Assembly: GCF_007750395.1 (NCBI RefSeq)
Contig: NZ_CP036281.1
Span: 2,875,001-2,939,000 of the forward strand
DNA from: Polystyrenella longa
Lineage (GTDB): Bacteria > Planctomycetota > Planctomycetia > Planctomycetales > Planctomycetaceae
Direction of reading: 5' to 3'
DNA: 64,000 nucleotides
Every line of letters starts with the position of its first letter. Position 1 is the stretch's first letter. Positions 35,985 through 41,906 of the stretch are shown piece by piece. The notes under the pieces are model-generated. The model saw nothing but the letters and a program-made list of their open reading frames with translations, ran no database searches and was not told where the DNA came from. A program made the translations under genes and the position numbers.

Positions 35985-36671
35985 GTGAAAATCCTATTTC
36001 TTCACGAAGAAAAAAACGACAATGTGGACGTCATCTCGACGTGCTTAATCGCTGCCGGTCACGAGGTCCTTAGACGTCCTCTCAACGATGCTGATGTAGA
36101 TCTTGCGATAAACATCGCCCAACAAGATTATGACCGTTATCGACCTAATGTCGTAATAGGACAGCACTTTGGCGGCACTATCGCCATGGAGCTTGATTCT
36201 GGAGAGACGCCACTCACCCTGCTCTATCCCGATTGGAAGAAATGGGGACTAAACACCAAACTAAAGTCAAACTCGGTGATCCTGCATTCACGATTTGACG
36301 ATGTGGTGCCCTTCACCGACTCCAAGGAACTTTTCGCCAACAGTGGTCTACCACCAGAAACTCTCATTGCCGTGGGGAACGACCACTCTCTGACTGATGA
36401 AGAATCATTGTCTGTTCTTCTTTGGGCATGTGATTTGTTGGTTTCGGGCGAAGAGATGATCTCCCTGCATGAAACGTCTCAAAACGACGCCAGTTATGTC
36501 TGCGACTCGTGTGGGGAAACGATAATCATTCCTCTTGATGTCACTGAAGGCGTGAATCAGACCTATGTCGAAGATTGTCCGGTCTGCTGTCACCCCAATA
36601 CGATTCACGTACTGCTAAGTAATGACGGCAGTGCTCAGGTATGGTCTGAACCGGAACAGGATCACGACTGA
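35985..36671 (+). CDS. alpha/beta-hydrolase-like protein lacking the catalytic Ser, fused to a CPXCG zinc-binding domain
   Basis: The 228-aa protein has an alpha/beta hydrolase domain (1-150) with the acid and His in SRFDDVVPF and GNDHSLTD. At the nucleophile elbow VVIGQHFGGTIAM carries His61 where relatives have Ser. Residues ~165-215 form a CPXCG-type domain (CDSCGETI, CPVCCHPN). The start is GTG at 35985. It may be a pseudoenzyme or use a changed chemistry. The 220 bp upstream of it hold a short remnant-like frame but no supportable gene. Confidence 0.75.
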   Translation: MKILFLHEEKNDNVDVISTCLIAAGHEVLRRPLNDADVDLAINIAQQDYDRYRPNVVIGQHFGGTIAMELDSGETPLTLLYPDWKKWGLNTKLKSNSVILHSRFDDVVPFTDSKELFANSGLPPETLIAVGNDHSLTDEESLSVLLWACDLLVSGEEMISLHETSQNDASYVCDSCGETIIIPLDVTEGVNQTYVEDCPVCCHPNTIHVLLSNDGSAQVWSEPEQDHD

Positions 36672-39190: not shown

Positions 39191-40096
39191 CTAATTTTGA
39201 GGAACCCCAGCATTTCCTTGTTGTGCCCCTAGCGACTCCAGTATTCGCTTCACGATAGCGTCTTCATCCACGACAGCCTCATCCCCACGTTCGCCCATAG
39301 GTCCGACTTGCCCCTCGCCACCACGTTCACCTTTCGGGCCAATCTGTCCTTCCTTACCCTTTTCACCTCTAGGACCACGTAGCATCTCGGTAAGTACCGG
39401 ATCACTGCGAAGTTTCAATAAAATTCGCTCAGTCTCCTCTTTAGGAGAAGTTGACAGAATACTGACTGAGAATAGTCCAACAAATACAGCAAAAGCGAAC
39501 AGAGCAAAGAATCGAGCGGATTTATAAAGGTCTACCAAATAGTTAGTTCGATTGTCCATGTCGGTCTGACATAGAAGATACCCGTTGATCATGCTTTTTT
39601 TGAGATTCGATGCGTCGAGTTCCACTTCGTCTTGTTCAATCGATATTTCACTCTCACATCCCACACCGAAAAACACAAGTAGCAGTGTAATAGTGTTCAT
39701 CAGGGCGAGTATAGCTAGAAAACCAATCAGTCTCATCCATGTATGTTCAAAAGCGAGTGCTTTCGGCGTTAGAAACCCAACGAGACCCATTAATACTGAA
39801 CTTATCGTGATCAGCGTTTTGCACTTATCGGTGATTGCAGTTCGACGATGTTTTGCATTGTCCAAGCACTCTTTCGATGCGGATAACAATAAGTCGAGCT
39901 CTTTTGCATTATCCAAGTTGCGATCAGAATAATTATGCGTCGAGTACCTCCCTGTGCGAACGTCATTTAGAGCTACATTCTCCAACCCATACAATCGCAG
40001 CGAGTAATAGGCTAGGTAATTAACCAACCAAGTTCGCAATAAATAACAACAGTCTAGGATGGTTTGGATAATATTTTTAAGTTTGGCTTGTCGCAT
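39191..40096 (-). CDS. membrane protein with C-terminal collagen-like repeats, last gene of the graspetide operon
   Basis: The 301-aa protein has three or four transmembrane segments (LITISSVLMGLVGFL, LIGFLAILALMNTITLLLVFFGV, FFALFAFAVFVGLFSVSIL). It ends with 11 uninterrupted Gly-X-Y triplets (from GPRGEKGKEG to MGERGDE, about 241-273) and a short tail. Collagen-like repeats can form a trimeric stalk. It starts 12 bp after the ATP-grasp stop, so it probably acts with the peptide pathway, perhaps in export, anchoring or immunity; that is inference. I do not recognise the membrane domain for certain. Confidence 0.75.
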   Translation of the reverse strand: MRQAKLKNIIQTILDCCYLLRTWLVNYLAYYSLRLYGLENVALNDVRTGRYSTHNYSDRNLDNAKELDLLLSASKECLDNAKHRRTAITDKCKTLITISSVLMGLVGFLTPKALAFEHTWMRLIGFLAILALMNTITLLLVFFGVGCESEISIEQDEVELDASNLKKSMINGYLLCQTDMDNRTNYLVDLYKSARFFALFAFAVFVGLFSVSILSTSPKEETERILLKLRSDPVLTEMLRGPRGEKGKEGQIGPKGERGGEGQVGPMGERGDEAVVDEDAIVKRILESLGAQQGNAGVPQN

Positions 40097-40108
40097 TTCG
40101 GTACTACC

Positions 40109-41062
40109 TCATTCATGGGAGAACGACCTTATGAACGAATTCGAAATCGTTGTTCCCGCCGATAGATCGAGCCATGCCCACTGCCCATTCGGGTTAACTT
40201 CCAAAAAGTGCCATTTTCCATCGAAGTCGACGGCCATGTCGATAGCGGCGAATCGCAAGCCGTAATGGGTGACTAGGTTCCTTAGTGACGAGGCTACAGA
40301 TTTGGGTAATTCAATTTGTGTGTATTCGACGTCAGACATGTTATTGCGGCGAATATCACATCGCTGAGCACCCGTACTATCCATGGCATACAATTCAACG
40401 GCATGAATCGCAGCGTCAACGATTGTGATCCGTACATCGCTCCTTTTGCGAAGGAACTGCTGGAATAAGGTGGGACAATTGACAAGGTCACTTGATGCTT
40501 CGAGGTGGTGATTCTCGACTCGACATGTATAGATCAAAGAGTCATTATGTCCCTCTCGCTCTATGTAGCCGCCCGACATTGGTTTCACGATAACCTGACC
40601 TTTGTGTTGCTCAAAGAACTTTTTTGCTTCAGCGGATTCTTGAGTCACCAGAGTGTCGGGGATGTAAAATCCGAGCGATCTTGCCGTTGTGAGTTGTTCT
40701 AGCTTGTGAGATGCTTGGACGTTCGCAGATGGATGATTCATCCACCGACACGTGGGAACATGTGCAAGAAAACCTTCGATGGCCTCTGCCCATTCTTCAA
40801 GAGCGAAACGATCTTCGGGCGAGTCGGAGAATTTCACATTATTTAACTGTTCTGGCCGGCGATACCAGATGTTAACGACATCGAGTGGAGAAAGTTCGTA
40901 CGGCCCAGTCGACAGGAGAGGTTCCCCATTGCGGTATGCGATTGTGGTGTCGGTTAGCAGTGTATCAGTATCAAGCCGTTTCAGCGGTATGCCAGCGTCA
41001 ATTAGAAGAGGCACAAGGTAGTCCGCCGTAGCGTCTTGACTGTTGGTTAAAATCAAGAGCAT
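40109..41062 (-). CDS. MvdC/MvdD-like ATP-grasp graspetide ligase
   Basis: Such ligases form ester or amide links between Thr/Ser/Lys and Asp/Glu side chains of a precursor peptide. The 317-aa protein has the family layout: N-terminal LILTNSQDATADYLVPLL, the 'WYRRPEQLN' block and WMNHPSANVQASHKLEQL (Asn-His-Pro motif, about 117-134). These are followed by ATP-grasp motifs VIVKPMSGG and FLEVNPNGQWAWL (metal-binding Glu/Asn, about 284-296). Its start overlaps the precursor gene stop by about 10 bp. Only one ligase is present, so it must process all cores. Confidence 0.9.
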   Translation of the reverse strand: MLLILTNSQDATADYLVPLLIDAGIPLKRLDTDTLLTDTTIAYRNGEPLLSTGPYELSPLDVVNIWYRRPEQLNNVKFSDSPEDRFALEEWAEAIEGFLAHVPTCRWMNHPSANVQASHKLEQLTTARSLGFYIPDTLVTQESAEAKKFFEQHKGQVIVKPMSGGYIEREGHNDSLIYTCRVENHHLEASSDLVNCPTLFQQFLRKRSDVRITIVDAAIHAVELYAMDSTGAQRCDIRRNNMSDVEYTQIELPKSVASSLRNLVTHYGLRFAAIDMAVDFDGKWHFLEVNPNGQWAWLDLSAGTTISNSFIRSFSHE

Positions 41063-41382
41063 CGAGGCAGAGCCTTGTAATATTTACGTCCGGGATCTTC
41101 GTCAGCTATTTCGGCTCGAACTGCCGTCGTTGTCTTTGTGGCAGTTAATAGTGTGCGTGGAGATCCAAGAGTTCCTGAAAGCCTATCCTTGTCACACTGC
41201 TCTGTGGCAACTCTCGTCGAGGTCATAGTGCCCGCCCTAACCGCATAATACGATGAGTGCTTTGGATCAGAATCCGGCTGTTCTGTAAAAACTTGCGTTT
41301 TGGTCATTGTTCCGGCAAGAAGGCTGGATAAGTCATCGGCAATGCAATCCTCCTGAAACTGTACGATGAAAGCGAGTGCCAT
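41053..41382 (-). CDS. graspetide precursor A with three core repeats
   Basis: The 109-aa peptide has a short leader (FIVQFQEDCIADDL, residues 5-18) and three cores with the same acceptor and donor spacing: T25/T27/T29-E34-D37-D39, T52/T54/T56-E61-D64-D66, and T82/T84/T86-E91-D94-D96. This fits TxTxTxxxxExxDxD, three Thr facing three acidic residues per core. Each core is followed by a spacer of about 13-15 residues. GGAAAGGTTAAAC supports the start. It lies directly upstream of the ligase gene and 3 bp after precursor B. Confidence 0.85.
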   Translation of the reverse strand: MALAFIVQFQEDCIADDLSSLLAGTMTKTQVFTEQPDSDPKHSSYYAVRAGTMTSTRVATEQCDKDRLSGTLGSPRTLLTATKTTTAVRAEIADEDPGRKYYKALPRCS

Positions 41383-41385
41383 CGT

Positions 41386-41604
41386 TTAACCTTTCCGATT
41401 GAATATGAAGTAACGATGACTAGCCCTGTCAGCGTCACTTTCTTCTTTGCTAACTTCTGTCACTGTCCTAGTTCCTGCCTTTATTTTAGAGATATTGGGG
41501 GCCATTGGCGAGTAGAGAATCATCTCTTCAAAACGCAGAATGAACGGGTTTAGGCGAGTGGCAGATTTTCTAGAATGGGGGTTGTGGCAACGACTGTTCA
41601 ACAT
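41386..41604 (-). CDS. graspetide precursor B with one core
   Basis: The 72-aa peptide carries one core T45-T47-T49-E54-D57-D59, again TxTxTxxxxExxDxD, near its C-terminus. Upstream, NPFILRFEEMI (19-29) resembles FIVQFQEDCI of precursor A and may be the ligase-recognition part of the leader. CGGAGGTACACA precedes the ATG at 41604, a strong ribosome site. It is the first gene of the four-gene minus-strand operon. Confidence 0.8.
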   Translation of the reverse strand: MLNSRCHNPHSRKSATRLNPFILRFEEMILYSPMAPNISKIKAGTRTVTEVSKEESDADRASHRYFIFNRKG

Positions 41605-41906
41605 TGTGTACCTCCGTTTAAATTACGGATGAATTTCTCGAGTTTTATTCTTTTCAGTATAGCAAATAATTATACTCGTGTTCAACAAACCAAGAGGAAG
41701 GCGAAGTTCCGAAGATGTTCTAACAAAACCTTAAGGTCAATTGCAAAGACACTTCGAATTGTTCTGGGGATCATTAAAACGCAACGCAGAGAAGTAGGGT
41801 CGTAATCTATTACTCAAATGATGCTCTAAATGGGAATTAGAAAATGAGAATGATTATGGGGCCAGCTCAGAGGGATAAAGCCAGAAAATAACGAGCGGAG
41901 CCGACT

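Follow-up and report, generated by a model that had tools for sequence, protein, structure and literature searches.

A probable graspetide operon in Polystyrenella longa with one-core and three-core precursors and a collagen-tailed membrane partner

Do four closely packed genes of the planctomycete Polystyrenella longa encode a graspetide, and if so, how are the side chains of its repeated cores joined? The genes lie on the minus strand of a 64,000-nucleotide stretch of contig NZ_CP036281.1 (positions 2,875,001 to 2,939,000; hereafter the window, in whose numbering coordinates are given). They are transcribed in the order precursor 1 (72 amino acids (aa), one core; 41386..41604), precursor 2 (109 aa, three cores; 41053..41382), a graspetide-synthetase-like ATP-grasp ligase (317 aa; 40109..41062) and a membrane protein with three predicted transmembrane segments and a collagen-like tail (301 aa; 39191..40096). 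Precursors 1 and 2 are separated by 3 nucleotides (nt), precursor 2 overlaps the ligase gene by 10 nt, and 12 nt separate the ligase from the membrane gene; because of this tight spacing the four genes look like one operon. The observed core motif, leader, ligase family, gene content, conservation and donor–acceptor coupling lead us to regard the four genes as very probably a graspetide biosynthetic operon, from which we infer the chemistry, the nesting of the links, the target and the role of the membrane protein.

Precursors, cores and ligase

Both precursors are open reading frames (ORFs) whose cores follow the pattern T-x-T-x-T-x4-E-x-x-D-x-D, exact in all four. The single core of precursor 1, TRTVTEVSKEESDAD (41428..41472, minus strand, as for all features of the operon), contributes T45, T47, T49, E54, D57 and D59. 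In precursor 2 the three cores are TMTKTQVFTEQPDSD (41266..41310; T25/T27/T29/E34/D37/D39), TMTSTRVATEQCDKD (41185..41229; T52/T54/T56/E61/D64/D66) and TKTTTAVRAEIADED (41095..41139; T82/T84/T86/E91/D94/D96), and the four-residue loops of the four cores read EVSK, QVFT, RVAT and AVRA. When the core pattern is back-translated, it matches the 64-kb window four times, always within the two precursor genes; 100 dinucleotide shuffles of the window gave a mean of 0.00 matches and a largest count of 0. The identical T-T-T, E, D, D offsets that an initial annotation of this DNA had reported are therefore exact. Its core counts, three in a precursor A and one in a precursor B, also stand, but the order is reversed if precursor A meant the first gene, because the one-core gene is transcribed first. 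The FI(V/L)xFxE-like leader block that it described in both precursors was likewise found, as FILRFEE at residues 21-27 of precursor 1 (41524..41544) and FIVQFQE at residues 5-11 of precursor 2 (41350..41370; both coordinate pairs computed from residue numbers).

Judged by profile matches, PDB sequence matches and alignment, the ligase is a member of the graspetide-synthetase superfamily. Its best NCBIfam profile is TIGR04187 (E 6.5e-76, 255.5 bits, curated cut-off 350), followed by MvdC (E 6.3e-50, 170.1 bits, cut-off 425) and MvdD (E 7e-49, 166.7 bits, cut-off 475), and the Pfam MvdD pre-ATP-grasp domain matches it weakly (E 4.2e-4, under the cut-off). A hidden Markov model comparison with graspetide classes, proposed in the initial annotation as a check, thus returned graspetide profiles, all at sub-cut-off scores. 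A graspetide-type ligase does lie directly downstream of the precursors, as that annotation held; the label MvdD-like which it used is loose, because TIGR04187 scores better. The ligase also matches six PDB sequences at 1e-3 or better: 9bou (3e-34), 5ig9, 7mgv, 5ig8, 7m4s and, distantly, 7drm (2e-5), a chain that we take to be PsnB. An alignment of 12 ligases has 31 invariant columns, including K120, K160, D236, R238, D275, E288 and N290; we assume that these invariant Lys, Arg, Asp, Glu and Asn columns are the ATP-grasp catalytic columns. The genome, a single contig of 6.1 Mb, contains one full-length match to the ligase and one partial, weak match (E 4.9e-4).

Few genomes have the ligase: with a threshold of E 1e-40, it was found in 4 of 397 genomes sampled from the class and 2 of 392 sampled from the phylum (the window genome included in each), and in 1 of 154 genomes in the class of genome G557, namely G557 itself. 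A scan of genome contigs for the ligase yielded four further loci (L003-L006) in metagenome-assembled genomes of Phycisphaerae or Sedimentisphaerales; the Planctomycetota set used throughout comprises nine loci, the window and L003-L010. A precursor with T/E/D repeats lies directly upstream of the ligase in 9/9 of these loci (the window and 8/8 others), and a regular expression for the leader block, F[ILW]xx[FL][EQ]E, matches 12 of their 12 precursors. In L007 and L008, too, a one-core gene precedes a multi-core gene, and both window precursors have homologues in these genomes (precursor 2 has one in L003 as well); the core T-x-T-x-T-E-V-x-[KR]-E-x-x-D-A-D is kept across the three one-core genes of the window, L007 and L008. 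The multi-core precursors of the relatives hold two to six matched cores. Conservation of the repeated core in homologous loci had been put forward as a further check of the initial annotation; the repeated core and the leader block were found in all eight further Planctomycetota loci, more weakly in L006 and L009. In a midpoint-rooted FastTree tree the nine planctomycete ligases form one clade (support 1.0), and eight alphaproteobacterial or phage ligases with TxT...ExxD cores form another (0.89) together with L036, a locus in which no core was found.

Several observations nevertheless weigh against a graspetide operon of this form. The ligase scores under all three curated NCBIfam cut-offs. 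Some relatives depart from the core pattern: L009 has shortened T-x-T-x-S-x-E-x-x-D cores that lack the third acid, 0/4 repeats of L006 combine three donors with three acids, and only 1/3 repeats of L010 has three donors. In this small tree the planctomycete ligase clade is not sister to the alphaproteobacterial/phage clade, and the tree therefore does not show that core and ligase arose once. Finally, in the eight proteins scanned, those of the operon and of four neighbouring genes, Pfam recognised no peptidase or transporter.

Some features of the related loci are recorded here as descriptive observations. An A-I-P-R-like segment follows the core in 20/31 Planctomycetota cores (a loose, post-hoc regular expression over the next 20 residues), and a Gly precedes the outermost donor in 15/31; both are possible processing or structural signals. 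Beyond the phylum, 79 plasmid records match the ligase at 1e-10, and loci from 16 of these were examined. The ligase was also found in 2 phage records and, on viral contigs, in 14 loci with an alignment query and 0 with a single-protein query. On the phage and viral contigs L030 and L041 (Leptospira phage), L037, L039, L042 and L050, a precursor, a ligase and a membrane gene occur together, and the TxT...ExxD cores have two or three donors. L026, L028, L045 and L047-L049, which come from rhizobial, Martelella and Azospirillum plasmids and a viral contig, hold another type of precursor beside a ligase and a membrane ORF; the C-terminus of this precursor hardly varies (KKNDLETGEDQKG, KKQDVETGEDQKG and closely similar forms). 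The best plasmid match (42% identity) is a ligase broken into five pieces on Acaryochloris plasmid pMB09 (L011, 4001-5675). This remnant is followed by pieces that resemble the membrane protein by eye (tblastn only E 0.13); no precursor was recognised there by eye, and a transposase is annotated upstream. The copy suggests movement of the cluster into a cyanobacterium.

Donor–acceptor coupling and the linkage pattern

How many links does each core carry, and between which residues? Evidence comes from how the third donor and the third acid are distributed among 59 cores of the form [TS]x[TS]x(3,4)ExxD/E/H, taken from 20 ORFs in 17 loci, nine of them in Planctomycetota and the others on plasmids of Alphaproteobacteria, in a phage record and on viral contigs. 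Each row had to contain both inner donors and ExxD/E/H, which drops, for example, the middle repeat of L009. Omitted as duplicates were L030, which seems to stem from the phage of L041, and L035, which copies L034; of 26 further loci screened for cores, the 5 with matches entered the test and the other 21 did not.

Where the outermost third donor (T, S or K) is present, an acid stands at E+5 in 26/28 cores; where it is absent, this acid is found in 12/31 (Fisher p=1.1e-5). The counts with both, donor only, acid only and neither are 21, 2, 4 and 4 of 31 cores in Planctomycetota (p=0.026), 5, 0, 8 and 15 of 28 outside them (p=0.013), and 10, 2, 7 and 12 when each locus and combination is given one row (p=0.024). 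Because the cores within a locus are related, the larger values, from the locus-collapsed test and from Planctomycetota, are the fairer ones. The coupling is specific in position: among offsets E+1 to E+7, E+5 alone is significantly and positively coupled to the third donor, and in the converse control, with six donor positions set against the acid at E+5, the third-donor place alone is significantly positive (p=1.1e-5). In L003 the outer donor of one core is Lys, a residue that the available text of a 2026 survey names as a graspetide donor along with Ser and Thr (PMC13097080).

This coupling of outermost donor with outermost acid favours a pairing of the outermost Thr with the outermost Asp, and hence nesting. 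On this comparison of sequences we consider three nested links per core moderately probable. The initial annotation had predicted three side-chain links per core, a number that the coupling favours but does not show. Leader binding, acyl-phosphate activation and ester formation would be expected because of the ligase family: the ligase would bind the F[ILW]xx[FL][EQ]E block, activate the side chains of the one Glu and the two Asp in a core as acyl phosphates, and esterify them to the three Thr of that core. Most likely, the nested links would give a three-rung hairpin with an innermost T-E, then a T-D and an outermost T-D link, such that full modification would place 3 links in precursor 1 (-54 Da) and 9 in precursor 2 (-162 Da). 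The loops EVSK, QVFT, RVAT and AVRA would then be the variable, target-facing part, and the targets are possibly serine proteases, as for the first-studied graspetides. The EVSK/EVKR loops would suggest trypsin-like targets, and by analogy the product may inhibit proteases. All graspetides characterised so far are protease inhibitors according to the available text of Makarova 2022 (PMC8939145); the 2026 survey, in its available text, reports no significant bioactivity for the compounds assayed (PMC13097080).

The coupling is not free of counter-evidence. It is weakened by the non-independence of the cores, as the larger p values given above indicate; the 12 cores mentioned above keep the third acid although they have no third donor, and two others show the reverse, a third donor but no third acid. 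In addition, two negative couplings are unexplained, one between the third donor and an acid at E+2 (p=5e-4) and one between a donor-type residue just before the inner Thr and the E+5 acid (p=0.03).

Part of this counter-evidence is what one would expect of thuringinin-like two-link cores, in which each core has links between two Thr and two acids and leaves its third Thr and third Asp free. The 12 cores that retain the acid without the donor fit such an arrangement, 23/28 alphaproteobacterial/phage cores have only two donors and are of the TxT-x4-ExxD type, and both plesiocin and thuringinin have two esters per tandem repeat in the available text of PMC12291112. However, the third donor and third acid are coupled, both are kept in all four window cores, and Ser or Lys, which are also donors, replace Thr in L003, L005 and L009 (the one in L009 without a third acid). 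We regard the two-link arrangement as unlikely.

Three links could also be crossed, giving a cage in the manner of microviridin or rosaritide instead of a nested hairpin. Rosaritide, as described in the available text of the 2026 survey, has three interlocking lactones that join S, S and T to D, D and D (PMC13097080), and the coupling test informs on the outer pair only. Yet outermost-to-outermost coupling is a prediction of nesting, and the 3-4 residue loops and multi-core precursors resemble those of the hairpin graspetides OEP6-1, plesiocin and thuringinin (PMC12291112, available text), which makes crossed links quite unlikely. That the ATP-grasp enzyme instead adds a group or amino acid, as a RimK- or glutamate-ligase-like enzyme for which the repeats are acceptor sites and no cyclisation occurs, is extremely improbable: RimK-family and glutathione-synthetase profiles match the ligase weakly and its best PHROG match (1.5e-19) is named 'ribosomal protein S6 glutaminyl transferase', but the TIGR04187, MvdC and MvdD profiles and graspetide synthetase structures match far better, and the leader block and donor-before-acceptor order of the cores fit graspetides.

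The membrane protein and the genomic surroundings

If the operon makes a graspetide with nested links, what does its fourth gene contribute? The range given in the initial annotation, 39191-41604, spans this gene, but its conserved product was overlooked. The membrane gene lies directly 3' of the ligase in 9/9 Planctomycetota loci, and a membrane ORF immediately follows the ligase in the eight extra-phylum relatives with TxT...ExxD cores. The two membrane families match each other with an hhalign probability of 96.7% (E 3.9e-10, a single comparison), which supports homology; for the membrane ORFs of L026, L028, L045 and L047-L049 the probability against the planctomycete family is 13.8%, and homology is not established. 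All four ligase-bearing genomes of the 397-genome sample (4/4) have the membrane protein. A profile of its non-collagen part matches 5/397 class genomes, namely these four, which are themselves in the profile and match by construction, and genome G282. Queried alone, the membrane protein gave no plasmid match (tblastn).

Residues 241-271 of the window protein (39284..39376) form a collagen-like Gly-X-Y stretch (Pfam Collagen E 2.9e-4, under the cut-off here). Pfam Collagen matches 8/10 aligned membrane proteins, at best with 8.2e-9; by alignment the tail is lacking in L006 and in the Agrobacterium relative L012, and 8/9 planctomycete loci have it. Hydropathy gives three segments in six planctomycete members and four, partly overlapping, in L003, L006 and L009; among the extra-phylum ORFs it gives three in six, four partly overlapping in L012 and six in the longer ORF of L042. 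R84 and K91 are invariant in 14/14 aligned membrane proteins. Two predicted models (predicted local distance difference test 75.6 and predicted template modelling score 0.58; 85.5 and 0.75) consist of long helices, consistent with three transmembrane passes. Fold searches with both models returned mainly generic helical bundles (best Foldseek E 0.12 in PDB and 0.12 in BFVD; best VIA Z 11.2 and 10.9, unrelated bundles), from which no inference about the membrane protein is drawn; the unnamed BFVD entry S5VYM5 has a Foldseek probability of 1.00 and template modelling scores of 0.41/0.63, but E 0.2. A PDB profile search with the membrane family gave matches that, among those examined, were almost all collagen, and without the tail nothing convincing. 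Other weak matches are to DUF2721, 8xMP and DsbB, and the literature on 8xMP showed nothing relevant among the matches listed.

From its constant position beside the ligase we take the membrane protein to be a dedicated partner, most simply for export or anchoring of the product. Two findings count against this explanation of the operon. First, G282 has a collagen-tailed membrane protein of the planctomycete family (L057, 4993-5847, minus strand) with no ligase at 1e-40 nor among the minus-strand ORFs around the membrane gene. Second, of the neighbouring genes compared outside the operon, just one partly matches a sequence close to a related locus (L020). It encodes a 228-aa protein (35985-36671), resembling an alpha/beta hydrolase by eye, that matches at 62% over 61 aa immediately past the membrane gene of the L007 genome.

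Instead of exporting or anchoring the product, the membrane protein could be an immunity or defence effector, and the operon a conflict module. In the window, 4/9 proteins scanned between 20 and 48 kb match PADLOC at 1e-5: a methylase (HmaB-like, 4.3e-36), an SNF2-type helicase (HmaA/BrxH-like, 1.9e-94), an LmuA/ThsA-like protein (8.7e-27), presumably SIR2-like, and an HNH enzyme (6e-27). AbiE, ABC-three-component or SIR2 genes stand beside L026, L028 and L049, loci of the different precursor type, and the membrane proteins of L008 (best 1.9e-4) and L012 (0.036) have weak PADLOC PycTM/2TM matches. Against this, a profile comparison with four PycTM proteins (hhalign) is not significant, 7/9 relatives scanned and the window protein itself have no PADLOC match, and the defence-like neighbours in the window and in L026, L028 and L049 are counted without a background rate. 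We find the effector role rather doubtful. The narrower candidate of a PycTM/SLATT-like effector, suggested by eye and weakly by PADLOC, gained no support from hhalign (0.3% in one comparison, at most 2.9% in another).

Export or anchoring remains the role that we prefer. A bolder version, speculative and very unlikely on present evidence, is that the protein is an obligate partner that would trimerise through its Gly-X-Y stalk and display or deliver the multi-core hairpin peptides at the cell surface; these would form a multivalent inhibitor array tethered to the membrane and serve in conflict, whether against proteases, predators or phage. If true, a graspetide product would act on a dedicated scaffold instead of being freely secreted.

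Other features surround the operon. A defence- or DNA-modification-like neighbourhood flanks it within 23763-44504 of the window. Five bases 5' of the ATG of precursor 1 is a ribosome-binding-like GGAGGT (41610..41615, minus strand). About 50 nt upstream of precursor 1, a consensus scan found a sigma-70-like promoter match, TTGAAC-18-TATACT (41656..41685, minus strand); this is weak evidence, as the scanned stretch has 9 promoter-like sites against a mean of 4.3 in shuffles.

Significance and comparison with known graspetides

Together the nine loci form a compact family of predicted graspetides in planctomycetes, and in its cores the third donor and the third acid tend to co-vary; the linkage pattern is therefore predictable, and testable by dehydration counts. 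With one- and three-core precursors for one ligase, the operon offers a clean system for single-enzyme processing of tandem cores. The membrane partner is its unexplained piece, and relatives of this protein are encoded behind the ligase in phages and on alphaproteobacterial plasmids as well.

Among the known families, the plesiocin motif is TTxxxxEE and the thuringinin motif TxxTxxxExxDxD. Microviridin (group 1) shares homology of its ligases MdnB/MdnC (5ig8, 5ig9) and a PFFARFL-like leader block; in contrast, the window has one ligase, not two, and inspection by eye found no TxKxPSD core in the two precursors. Plesiocin (group 2) also has tandem repeats, but TTxxxxEE is absent from the window precursors and 7drm matches the ligase at 2e-5 only. 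Two further traits were not matched among the eight proteins scanned: the isoaspartyl methyltransferase of graspimiditide (group 13; Pfam) and the SPASM maturase of grasp-with-SPASM systems. Plesiocin is described, in the available text of the 2026 survey, as having a hairpin pattern and inhibiting serine proteases (PMC13097080). The same text discusses corallotide (group 15), a graspetide with a repeated motif, beside collagen; there, however, 'collagen-like' refers to the peptide product, which lacks Gly-X-Y (PMC13097080), whereas the window has a separate membrane protein. Apart from this survey, the literature found on collagen-like together with ATP-grasp proteins consisted of a Bacillus pumilus genome paper. 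It also adds 19 groups to the earlier 24, including groups 34 and 35 with long repeat-bearing precursors (PMC13097080). The string Planctomyc- is not mentioned in the main text, as distinct from the supplements, of PMC8939145 or PMC13097080, and core motif strings paired with graspetides gave no literature among the matches listed.

OEP6-1 (Lee group 6) has three nested cross-links in a stem-loop (PMC12291112), the arrangement that we propose for the window cores; the available text of that paper mentions no collagen-tailed partner. From sequence features, the operon appears nearest to the thuringinin-type multi-core graspetides, as a variant, and its core may equal that of a described group, Lee group 3, 5 or 6. 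In the available text of Makarova 2022, precursor cluster 13 has repeats of Lee groups 3, 5 or 6, and an uncharacterised membrane-protein cluster, cluster 18, is specific for thuringinin loci and likely acts in peptide transport (PMC8939145). Like the thuringinin type, the window has several T/E/D repeats in one precursor, a conserved hydrophobic leader block and a single ATP-grasp ligase, and its membrane protein, compared by description only, recalls cluster 18, found in loci that mostly have no known transporter (PMC8939145, available text). Unlike that type, the operon combines three donors and three acids at fixed offsets, precursors with one and three cores, and a membrane protein with a collagen-like tail.

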